Shown here in pieces: positions 17,551 to 26,482 of a stretch of DNA of 64,000 nt (its first letter is position 1; each line of letters starts with the position of its first letter). Origin of the DNA: Lentilactobacillus curieae (GTDB lineage Bacteria; Bacillota; Bacilli; Lactobacillales; Lactobacillaceae); NCBI RefSeq assembly GCF_000785105.2, contig NZ_CP018906.1, positions 1,364,001 through 1,428,000 of the forward strand, read 5' to 3'. A model generated the notes under the pieces. It worked only from the letters and a program-made list of their open reading frames with translations. It was not told the DNA's origin and searched no databases. The translations under genes were made by a program, and so were the position numbers.

Positions 17551-17563
17551 TGTAACTGGTATT

Positions 17564-17610
17564 GTTTGCCCCACGATAAGCCCCGGAAACTTATTTGGTG
17601 TCGAACAAAC
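17564..17610 (+). promoter_or_regulatory. L13-type ribosomal leader (nested hairpin)
   Basis: Three short helices nest in one structure: GTTTG (17564-17568) with CAAAC (17606-17610), CCCCA (17569-17573) with TGGTG (17596-17600), and ATAAG (17576-17580) with CTTAT (17590-17594), closing a CCCCGGAAA loop. It lies between the promoter and the rplM SD. Leaders that sense L13 are known in Firmicutes; that this is such a leader is inference from position and fold. Confidence 0.5.
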
Positions 17611-17633
17611 ACAGAAACATGGAGGAAATTAAC

Positions 17634-19257: not shown

Positions 19258-19277
19258 AAAGGCCACGAGGGCCTTTT
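19257..19277. terminator. Bidirectional terminator between convergent genes
   Basis: AAAAGGCC (19257-19264) pairs with GGCCTTTT (19270-19277) around a 5-nt loop. A/T runs on both sides let it serve the S component on the plus strand and the DUF2187 gene on the minus strand, whose stop codon overlaps it. Confidence 0.8.
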
Positions 19278-19536
19278 ACTTTTCTTCTTCTTCATCGTCT
19301 TCAGTTTCAACTTTTGGAGCCGCTTTGATCATCTTAAGGTGCTGATTATTGATAACTACTTTATTGTGGTACTTATCAATAATTTCAGGATCTTTTGATT
19401 CAAAAGTGATCAAGAAAGAGTTGGTATAACTTTTATCGATGAAACCAGTAAACTTTTGCTTTTCGATGGTGAATTCAACTTCGTCACCTACGTTGTATTT
19501 TGCCTGTTGTTCTGAAACTTCGGTATTTTTTGCCAA
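19276..19536 (-). CDS. DUF2187 family small protein
   Basis: An 86-residue protein with a single small beta domain of the DUF2187 (YkvS-like) type: YNVGDEVEFTIEKQKFTGFI, then a Tyr- and Asn-rich middle (HNKVVINNQHLKMI) and a highly acidic tail (DDEEEE). Function is unknown; the fold resembles small SH3/KOW-like nucleic-acid-binding domains, which is only a suggestion. The start chosen is TTG (first base 19536, giving MAKNTEVSEQ), 6-8 nt after SD GGAGATG; the in-frame ATG at 19545 is inside that SD. Confidence 0.85.
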   Translation of the reverse strand: MAKNTEVSEQQAKYNVGDEVEFTIEKQKFTGFIDKSYTNSFLITFESKDPEIIDKYHNKVVINNQHLKMIKAAPKVETEDDEEEEK

Positions 19537-19572
19537 TGAAAACATCTCCAAGGTTTTTAAGTATCAAATGAT

Positions 19573-19688: not shown

Positions 19689-20321
19689 TTGTCAGCGTAT
19701 AAAAAAGGCCGCAAAAGCCGAAAAAAACAATCAAATAGAATTGTCATGTTCGCATTTATTGCGTTCGGACTGTTTGTTGTGCTTGGATTTCATGTGTTAT
19801 ACCAGGCGGAATCTACTCCCCAACGGGTTGAGAATACTGGTCAAAGCCTAAGTGAGCAACACCAAAAGTTCATCCGGACAATTGCACCAGAGGCCCAAAA
19901 GTTGCAAGGACAGTATAATATTTTGCCAAGTATTACGATTGCGCAGGCAATATTGGAGTCGCAGTGGGGCGAAAGTGACCTTGCAAGTAAGTACAATAAC
20001 TTATTTGGGGTTAAGGCTCAGGGGGGATTATCGAAGTCAGTCTATTTGGACACTCAAGAATTCGTAAATGGTGAGTATGTTACTGTAAAAGCGCGTTTCC
20101 AGGTATACTCTTCTTACTCTGAGTCACTGAGTGATCATGCTAGATTATTGGCGATGGGCACAAAATGGAATCCAAATCAGTATGCAGACGTAGTCAACGC
20201 TACAAATTATGTGCAGGCAGCCAAGGGATTGCAAACAGATGGCTATGCAACCGACCCAGCTTATACGCAGAAATTAATTCAAATAATCAAGACGTACAAA
20301 TTATATCGATACGATGACTAG
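19689..20321 (+). CDS. Membrane-anchored glucosaminidase-type (GH73) peptidoglycan hydrolase
   Basis: A 210-residue protein with a very basic N-terminus, one membrane-spanning segment (about residues 18-38) and an extracellular GH73 (endo-beta-N-acetylglucosaminidase, FlgJ/LytG-like) domain at about 55-205. The probable catalytic Glu is E90 in AILESQWGES; the YNNLFGVK motif follows, as in the family. There are no LysM or SH3 repeats, so attachment is by the membrane anchor. The start is TTG 19689 with only a weak SD. It is followed 15 nt later by xpt. Confidence 0.88.
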   Translation: MSAYKKGRKSRKKQSNRIVMFAFIAFGLFVVLGFHVLYQAESTPQRVENTGQSLSEQHQKFIRTIAPEAQKLQGQYNILPSITIAQAILESQWGESDLASKYNNLFGVKAQGGLSKSVYLDTQEFVNGEYVTVKARFQVYSSYSESLSDHARLLAMGTKWNPNQYADVVNATNYVQAAKGLQTDGYATDPAYTQKLIQIIKTYKLYRYDD

Positions 20322-20336
20322 AGAGGATATTATTAA

Positions 20337-20912
<576 letters not shown>

Positions 20913-20940: not shown

Positions 20941-22104
20941 ATGTTGGCGAATGAAAATGTTGTTTATCCAGGGCAAACAGTCGGAGTGATTGGTGAAAGT
21001 ATTAGTAATCTTTCATTAATAACTACCGCTAAAAAAATGGGATTCAAGGTAGCTGTATACAGCAGCAACGAAAGTTCTGATATCATGCAAGTTTCTGATT
21101 TTCAGTACATGGGTGACTACACTGATAAATCCTCATTAAAAATGTTTGCTGAAAGATGTGACGCAGTTATCTATAATGATGACCAAATTGGTTCAGACAT
21201 CGTCGACTATCTTTCTCAGTACACCAGAGTTCCTCAAAATACTGATTTACTCGACATTAACCAGGATCGGTTAATTGAACGTAGTTTTTTTGAGACGCTA
21301 AACATGAATATGGCTCCGTACGCAACGATTATCGAACTGGAGGATATTTACCAGGCAATCAATTCAATCGGCTATCCTGCCATTTTAAAGCCCATTCAGA
21401 GGGGACTATTAGGTGGCCAAGAACTTTACATTGAAAAACAGAGTGACATTGTAAAGGCATCTGGGATGCTTGATGTTGGGACATACATCCTGGAATCATA
21501 TGTAAAGCACGATATTGACTATTCGGTAGTTGTGACTCGGGGTGAGAATTCTGATCGGGTAATCTTCCCAGTTATTGAGGATATTTACCAACGTTCTCGC
21601 TTAATCACAGCATTTACGCCTGCAAAAATCGAGTCAGGATTAGAAAAAGAAATGATTCGGATTGCTAATGAAATTGCCAATAACTTGGACTATGTTGGTA
21701 CGTTTGAAGTTTCTTTCTATGTTTCTGAAAACGGGTCGATTTATGTAAACAAAATCGCTCCTAATATGGGAATTGCCGGCTCAGTTTTTGAATACGCACT
21801 GAGTGTTGATCAATTTGAACAACATCTCCGGGCAATTGCTGGGTTACCTTTGATGAAACCGATTGTCGGAATTCCTACTGTTTTACAAACTATCAATGAA
21901 CAAGATTACGGCAGAATTCAAACTCAATGGGTAATCAAAGATAATTGGCACTTCAACTTTTATGGCTTAAATGATGGCCGTCACGGAACAATCGGTCACA
22001 TTTTAATTCCAACTGAGTCGATTGCCAAAACGTTGATGCAAATTGAAGGAACCAATATTTGGAACAATATTGATTTTGAAGCAAAATATAAAAAAATGGA
22101 CTAA
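20941..22104 (+). CDS. PurK-like ATP-grasp protein with degenerate active site
   Basis: A 387-residue relative of N5-carboxyaminoimidazole ribonucleotide synthase (PurK), recognisable from the N-terminal pre-ATP-grasp domain, QDRLIERSFFETL-like segment, MAPYATI and the C-terminal QFEQHLRAIAGLPL. Key PurK motifs are altered: the Gly-rich N-terminal loop (GGGQLG in the family) is GESISN, the metal-binding and substrate motif NE-x-APRxHNSGH is NKIAPNMGIAGS, and the YDGKGQ loop is missing. It probably does not carry out the PurK reaction; no other de novo purine gene is nearby. ATG 20941 has SD AGAGGT; a GTG at 20935 overlaps that SD. Operon with xpt. Confidence 0.75.
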   Translation: MLANENVVYPGQTVGVIGESISNLSLITTAKKMGFKVAVYSSNESSDIMQVSDFQYMGDYTDKSSLKMFAERCDAVIYNDDQIGSDIVDYLSQYTRVPQNTDLLDINQDRLIERSFFETLNMNMAPYATIIELEDIYQAINSIGYPAILKPIQRGLLGGQELYIEKQSDIVKASGMLDVGTYILESYVKHDIDYSVVVTRGENSDRVIFPVIEDIYQRSRLITAFTPAKIESGLEKEMIRIANEIANNLDYVGTFEVSFYVSENGSIYVNKIAPNMGIAGSVFEYALSVDQFEQHLRAIAGLPLMKPIVGIPTVLQTINEQDYGRIQTQWVIKDNWHFNFYGLNDGRHGTIGHILIPTESIAKTLMQIEGTNIWNNIDFEAKYKKMD

Positions 22105-22127
22105 GTCGGCGTCGTGCCGGCTTTTTT
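22105..22127 (+). terminator. Intrinsic terminator after the PurK-like gene
   Basis: GTCGGC (22105-22110) pairs with GCCGGC (22116-22121) around a 5-nt loop, then six T. It directly abuts the stop codon. Confidence 0.85.
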
Positions 22128-22170: not shown

Positions 22171-22205
22171 TGATTGGATAATTGTGCGAGAGGATGGACA
22201 GTAAT

Positions 22206-26482
<4,277 letters not shown>

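Follow-up and report, generated by a model that had tools for sequence, protein, structure and literature searches.

A candidate PurK-derived pseudoenzyme encoded behind xpt in Lentilactobacillus curieae

We analyzed a 64,000-nucleotide stretch of the Lentilactobacillus curieae chromosome (the window throughout this text), focusing on a gene whose product, here called PurKL, resembles the purine enzyme PurK. The gene follows a cell-wall hydrolase gene and xpt, and it is followed by two genes that we take, from resemblance, to be pcrA and ligA. The features at the locus are as follows.

19689-20321, plus strand: gene for a glucosaminidase-type cell-wall hydrolase (Pfam PF01832, 139 bits), whose sequence shows a hydrophobic segment at the N terminus
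20337-20912, plus strand: xpt, xanthine phosphoribosyltransferase (NF006671/PRK09219, 301 bits against a cut-off of 177)
20941-22104, plus strand: gene for PurKL, a putative PurK-derived ATP-grasp pseudoenzyme of 387 amino acids, in an intact open reading frame
21388-21414, plus strand: replaced GGYDGKGQ loop, codons 150-158 of PurKL (KPIQRGLLG), in which Lys150 corresponds to E. coli Lys120
21712-21762, plus strand: former metal/AIR site, codons 258-274, with Ser258 in place of Glu226 and Lys271 in place of Glu238
22103-22123, plus strand: terminator-like hairpin directly 3′ of the PurKL gene and then a T run (pattern scan only)
22182-24437, plus strand: pcrA helicase gene, the conserved downstream flank (named by resemblance)
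24452-26482, plus strand: ligA, next after pcrA (named by resemblance)

The intergenic gaps calculated from these coordinates are short (15 nt between the hydrolase gene and xpt, 28 nt between xpt and the PurKL gene), and together with the terminator-like hairpin after PurKL they make a single hydrolase-xpt-PurKL transcript plausible; the pattern scan that gave the hairpin found 5 such sites against 2.1 expected in shuffles. Control of this operon by a riboswitch was considered and rejected, as the Rfam scan of the window gave no purine riboswitch match near xpt or the rest of the operon at the Rfam threshold. The Rfam matches that the window does contain are ordinary: a ribosomal protein L13 leader (17558-17615) just before an L13-like gene and an S10-Clostridia leader (45-142). 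A short minus-strand gene (19276-19551) lies between an ECF-substrate-component-like gene and the hydrolase gene; a counterpart occurs in every one of the loci L013-L026 (14/14) and also in some further genera.

PurKL starts with the ATG at 20941, and its stop codon ends at 22104; the reading-frame listing opens two codons earlier, at a GTG. The best PDB match is PurK (PDB ID code 3q2o, E 7e-52), nearly full length over residues 4-376, and QFEQHLRAIAGLPL is PurK-like, which bears out the sequence-only reading of a PurK-like frame with this segment conserved. PurKL also scores as an ATP-grasp protein (PF02222, 82.5 bits; PF22660, 36.6 bits; cut-off 27 for both). All seven NCBIfam PurK models listed place it below their curated cut-offs, with a best score of 253 bits against 375 and a TIGR01161 score of 169 bits against 318. 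The canonical PurK of the same genome reaches 547 bits on the model where PurKL gets 253 and is above the cut-off in four of the seven. The Pfam PurK_C domain, whose position spans the AIR ligands Lys307, Arg313, and Lys314, gave no match at E 0.001 in any of four PurKL proteins scanned (those of the window, L083, L098, and L110) and was matched by the genome's own canonical PurK with 67.9 bits. At the level of motifs, GGGQLG has become GESISN, GGYDGKGQ has become RGLLGGQE, VEMF has become VSFY, and NELAPRPHNSGH has become NKIAPNMGIAGS. The N-terminal loop, the YDGKGQ loop, and the NELAPRPHNSGH site had all been called replaced beforehand; this stands, except that the N-terminal loop retains its first glycine. 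An AF2 model of PurKL built on 15 rows (the window and 14 related loci) had a mean pLDDT of 58 and a pTM of 0.48 and was therefore too poor for pocket analysis. By membership, we would place PurKL outside PurK, as several defining features that were tested are absent.

The changes reach the residues on which PurK chemistry depends. Glu226 and Glu238, which we take to be the two metal-binding glutamates of PurK, are Ser and Lys in the window PurKL, so that the loss of the metal-binding glutamate claimed earlier holds and extends from one residue to both. According to PMC3261824, the AIR ligands of PurK are Gln11, Lys307, Arg313, and Lys314, with Glu49 as a further AIR contact and Asp127 as the base, and the ATP residues are Arg80, Lys120, and Glu153 (E. 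coli numbering). At Gln11, Lys307, Arg313, Lys314, and Asp127, the window PurKL has Ile, Leu, Gly, Thr, and Leu, respectively, and Glu49 is Asn; Arg80, Lys120, and Glu153 are all kept. We counted these residues in all 55 PurKL sequences and in a set of 42 that limits the weight of close Lentilactobacillus relatives. In the set of 42, Arg80 and Glu153 are retained in 95% each and Lys120 in 88% (in the full set, 53/55, 53/55, and 50/55). Gln11 is kept in 10% of the 42, Asp127, Lys307, Arg313, and Lys314 in 5% each, and Glu49 in 21%; for Q11, D127, R242, N245, K307, R313, K314, and E238 taken together, retention ranges from 0 to 10%. Arg80, Lys120, and Glu153 all stand in the top 8 of the 48 columns that are invariant in 31 canonical PurKs, a placing for which our own arithmetic gives a chance of 0.003 for three named columns. 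Lys120 is followed by a new, PurKL-specific Pro-Ile-Gln, each residue of which is conserved in 86-98% of the 42. With AIR ligands, base, and metal glutamates lost, the earlier argument against AIR carboxylation has good sequence support, and we infer that PurKL could neither bind AIR nor make N5-CAIR. The earlier observation of a PurK homologue that lacks the active site is thus confirmed, and the evidence strongly supports the view that PurKL is not a working PurK.

The genome (2.1 Mb, one contig) contains only one other PurK-family gene (C1:704521-705630). In the part of the purine operon that was read, it sits among purE, purK, purC, purQ, purL, purF, and purM (gene names rest on resemblance, with family models in addition for purE and purL), and its product has YDGHGQ and NELAPRPHNSGH intact. 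A separate purEK, whose presence had been put forward as something to check, therefore exists, and the window PurKL is a paralogue and not the genome's only PurK, a case that had been named beforehand as able to refute the earlier reading. All 24 Lentilactobacillus genomes searched contain PurKL, with internal stops in none. Canonical PurK is found in 18 of the 24 (in two pieces in the draft genome G004), purE and purL are found in the same 18, and canonical PurK thus accompanies purE in 18 of 18 purE-bearing genomes of the genus. Six genomes (G009, G010, G011, G018, G019, and G023) keep PurKL without purE, PurK, or purL; four of them are 99% complete, G009 83%, and G011 88%. purB occurs in all 24, that of G009 in pieces below the cut-off; there it appears as two overlapping pieces with a stop (G009:C1:187419-188704), possibly an assembly error in a draft genome.

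Across the family, purE is absent in 102 of 301 Lactobacillaceae genomes. A PurK-family match at E <= 1e-30 is present in 77 of these 102 (61 at 1e-50), with synteny checked only where the locus was fetched; one of the 77 is a canonical PurK (G085, 65% complete). Seven of the 301 genomes have no PurK-family match at E <= 0.001, and others have weak matches only. Searching two genomes of genus g16 (G038 and G075) with the PurKL profile returned a single PurK-family match each, canonical in both, and in genus g37 a match at E <= 1e-40 is missing from at least 12 genomes. The absence of PurKL from these g16 and g37 genomes indicates that its function is dispensable.

We compared 54 PurKL loci, hand-picked with no random draw from the matches listed for genomes that have one; 40 of them cover 29 of 40 genus codes. 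Reference genes for labeling the neighbors by BLAST came from the window, the same genome, and two loci, and pbuX and purB were named by NCBIfam. Within five same-strand genes upstream of PurKL, the hydrolase gene is found at 50 of the 54 loci, xpt at 45, and pbuX at 10; within five same-strand genes downstream, pcrA is found at 50 and purB at 12. The tie between xpt and PurKL is not strict, since xpt is absent nearby at 9 of the 54. No PurKL locus (0/54) has purE within five genes upstream, a position that it occupies at 8 of 8 canonical loci of other families. A purine riboswitch directly upstream of xpt on the same strand was found at 6 of the 11 loci scanned, namely at four of nine Lactobacillaceae PurKL loci (L081, L087, L092, and L095), at one locus with canonical purK (L120), and at one with a degenerate copy (L124); in some genera, the order is a purine riboswitch and then xpt-pbuX-PurKL. 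Insertions also occur. In G289, two genes lie between PurKL and pcrA (L083:3755-5701), one of them with a partial match to the MADS3 defense AAA ATPase (43 bits against a cut-off of 420), and in two genera a PRK04164 "hypothetical protein" gene lies between xpt and PurKL (L086:5414-5959 and L097:7238-7855).

In other Lactobacillales families, canonical purE-purK stands behind xpt at the chromosomal place of PurKL. Such loci include the hydrolase gene in L118, L119, and L120 and pbuX in L116, L120, and L132; purB is downstream in L116, L118, L120, and L132 and not in L119. The cell-wall hydrolase, previously offered as a functional clue, looks instead like part of an old neighborhood: in L118, L119, and L120, this kind of hydrolase gene stands a few genes upstream of canonical purEK. 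On the same ground, we rejected this neighbor as a clue to a cell-wall role.

Among 20 regions picked from an order-wide search of Lactobacillales, 12, from five other families, carry a PurK copy without the GGYDGKGQ loop. Six of these 12 genomes have no purE and a single PurK-family match; the other six have purE elsewhere and a second PurK-family match, canonical in G315, the one that was read. Where canonical purK occupies the locus, purE is adjacent and the PurK match is single in four genomes of four. The 12 degenerate copies retain Arg80, Lys120, and Glu153 in 12/12 each, Glu226 and Glu49 in 11/12, His244 in 10/12, Lys307 in 6/12, Glu238 in 5/12, Gln11 and Lys314 in 3/12, Arg313 in 2/12, Asp127 in 1/12, and Asn245 in 0/12. 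By these counts, they are less stripped than Lactobacillaceae PurKL.

In a tree from all alignment columns (83 rows, leaving out some near-identical Lentilactobacillus rows and L109, L111, and L112), PurKL and canonical PurK of Lactobacillaceae form separate groups (100/100 and 99/95, respectively), and the PurKL branches between genera are long. The 12 degenerate rows from other families, treated as a group, take six changes on this tree, two of them forced by well-supported branches. A second tree with the motif columns removed, and the AU tests, used 56 rows (20 PurKL, 12 degenerate, 9 canonical from other families, and 15 canonical Lactobacillaceae), a set that omits, among others, the longest-branch PurKL sequences L103, L104, L107, and L113. 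Here, PurKL, the degenerate copies, and locus-type canonical PurKs from three further families come together (90/97, short of the program's star mark), and explaining the degenerate state takes five changes, at least four of them forced by well-supported branches. A single origin of all degenerate copies was rejected (AU p 1e-58, for groups named by motif after the trees had been seen and with long branches). Duplication within the family, with PurKL as sister to canonical Lactobacillaceae PurK, was weakly rejected (AU p 0.038). The trees give moderate support to the view that PurKL descends from the purK of this locus. Since regain of a whole active site is implausible, we read the degenerate changes as repeated losses: purK at the locus seems to have lost its active site at least four times in the tree, without an adjacent purE and with the gene still open. 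The clearest case is the degenerate L126 beside the canonical L120 (100/99).

The explanation that we favor, and to which we give an even chance, is that PurKL is a PurK freed of its enzyme work that serves purine salvage as a nucleotide-binding sensor or scaffold. We infer that it would bind adenine nucleotide in the ATP-grasp cleft, and this binding would probably be independent of Mg2+ because the Glu238 position is Lys or Arg in most copies. Nucleotide-bound and empty PurKL would differ in shape, a partner would read the difference, and PurKL would in this way signal the state of the adenylate pool to the salvage or interconversion of purines, as a regulator or a scaffold; among purine proteins, Xpt, PbuX, and PurB are those most often encoded beside it. 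A new ligand or a sensing role, as the sequence-only reading had suggested, is consistent with the evidence, given that the ATP residues are kept, the AIR residues are lost, and the neighbors belong to purine salvage. PurKL may preserve a noncatalytic role already present in PurK. According to a review (PMC10912719), PurK takes a central place in the interactions between purine enzymes of E. coli, and altered PurK interactions lower adenylate and guanylate energy charge. If a noncatalytic role of this kind outlives catalysis, the repeated retention of disarmed copies would be accounted for.

A wider form of this proposal is possible but doubtful. PurK would have a hidden, noncatalytic job in purine control, and at the xpt-pbuX-purEKB locus its catalytic and AIR-binding residues would have been stripped repeatedly once the activity was unneeded, the adenine-nucleotide pocket being kept. 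Stripping would be fullest in Lactobacillaceae and partial elsewhere, and the resulting sensor or scaffold, Mg2+ independent in Lactobacillaceae, would tune salvage across Lactobacillales.

Alternatively, PurKL could be a noncatalytic scaffold that keeps the protein contacts of PurK, with nucleotide merely stabilizing the fold. We hold this to be unlikely: it draws on the hub position of PurK reported for the E. coli purine enzyme network (PMC10912719) and on the purine genes among the PurKL neighbors. Against it, PurE, PurK, and PurL, the de novo partners searched for, are gone in 6 of the 24 genus genomes, and the best-kept functional residues of PurKL are the ATP ones. The same ATP residues, together with the conserved P-I-Q in the remodeled loop and strong purifying selection, would also suit an ATP-grasp ligase that is active on a new substrate. 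We regard such a ligase as quite unlikely, since both putative Mg2+-binding glutamates are lost in most PurKL (Glu226 is present in 9/55 and Glu238 in 1/55) and position 238 is Lys or Arg in 38/55. A basic residue at this position is unexpected for an ATP-grasp enzyme.

To gauge selection, we took dN/dS from the 14 pairs of highest similarity and from the pairs that include the window sequence. Where dS was measurable, in five Lentilactobacillus pairs, the PurKL ratios were 0.041, 0.024, 0.032-0.037, 0.019, and 0.015. For comparison, ligA gave 0.031, 0.025, and 0.034 in three measurable pairs, and pcrA and the hydrolase gene gave 0.017-0.018 and 0.037-0.069 in the pairs measured. dS was saturated in many other pairs, including the window PurKL against its nearest relatives, and four pairs that include the window sequence, at a nearly saturated dS of about 3, would have a ratio of ∼0.09-0.10. 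By these ratios, PurKL is under strong purifying selection, with close-pair values as low as those of ligA, which argues that it is not decaying. A decaying relic, or a gene kept solely for operon expression of the genes downstream, is therefore very improbable. PurKL does occupy the place of canonical purK in other families, and its branches between genera are long, but close-pair dN/dS of ∼0.015-0.041 is like that of ligA, internal stops occur in 0 of 24 genus genomes, and PurKL is kept where purB is not downstream. That PurKL is an isoenzyme with unusual motifs that still works as PurK is barely credible, despite the full-length PurK homology, the other-family copies that keep Glu226 and part of NELAPRPHNSGH, and the scores of both other-family copies scanned (L114 and L126) above an NCBIfam PurK cut-off: PurKL has lost the AIR ligands and the base, a canonical PurK is present wherever purE occurs in the genus (18/18, that of G004 in two pieces), and among the 12 genomes of other families that carry a degenerate copy, 6 have no purE.

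These copies carry a risk for annotation. L114:6004-7131 and L126:6001-7116, which have lost the catalytic loop, pass model NF004675 (485 and 453 against a cut-off of 375), and automatic annotation could therefore call them functional PurK. Lactobacillaceae PurKL appears purK-like enough to receive that name as well, and very probably has done so: the accessible part of PMC9160967 describes "another purK gene" in L. rhamnosus in an operon with xpt, pucK (a permease), and purB. Its operon partners are those of the PurKL locus, and on this match, one of partners and not of sequence, it is very probably the same paralogue, already seen in annotation. That part of the paper lists the gene as purK by annotation, and its lost active site, history, and function are not discussed there. 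Where PurKL-type copies are named purK, pathway reconstructions could wrongly predict purine synthesis. Among the matches listed by our literature search, there was no PurK pseudoenzyme, no catalytically dead PurK in lactobacilli, and nothing on the lost active site of PurKL or its recurrence.

A core enzyme that has apparently been disarmed several times and retained each time is a natural experiment, and this history suggests a selectable role of PurK besides N5-CAIR synthesis. It would offer a testable handle on PurK as the reported hub of bacterial purine enzymes and on purine-state sensing in purine-auxotrophic lactobacilli.

Among known systems, PurKL is closest to PurK itself (N5-CAIR synthase, EC 6.3.4.18; PDB ID codes 3q2o and 1b6r), with which it shares full-length homology, Arg80, Lys120, and Glu153, and the chromosomal place of purK in the purEKB locus. 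It differs from PurK in lacking the AIR ligands, the Asp127 base, and the putative metal glutamates, in having no purE partner at the locus, and in being kept in genomes without purE and PurK. Pseudoenzymes, such as pseudokinases, are enzyme folds that remain under selection after their catalytic residues have been lost, with the nucleotide site retained. PurKL appears to resemble them in its selected fold, lost catalytic residues, and kept ATP residues, and a pseudoenzyme of PurK is the best reading of what it is. Set against pseudoenzymes in general, PurKL differs in that its type of loss is repeated in parallel lineages at a single syntenic position.
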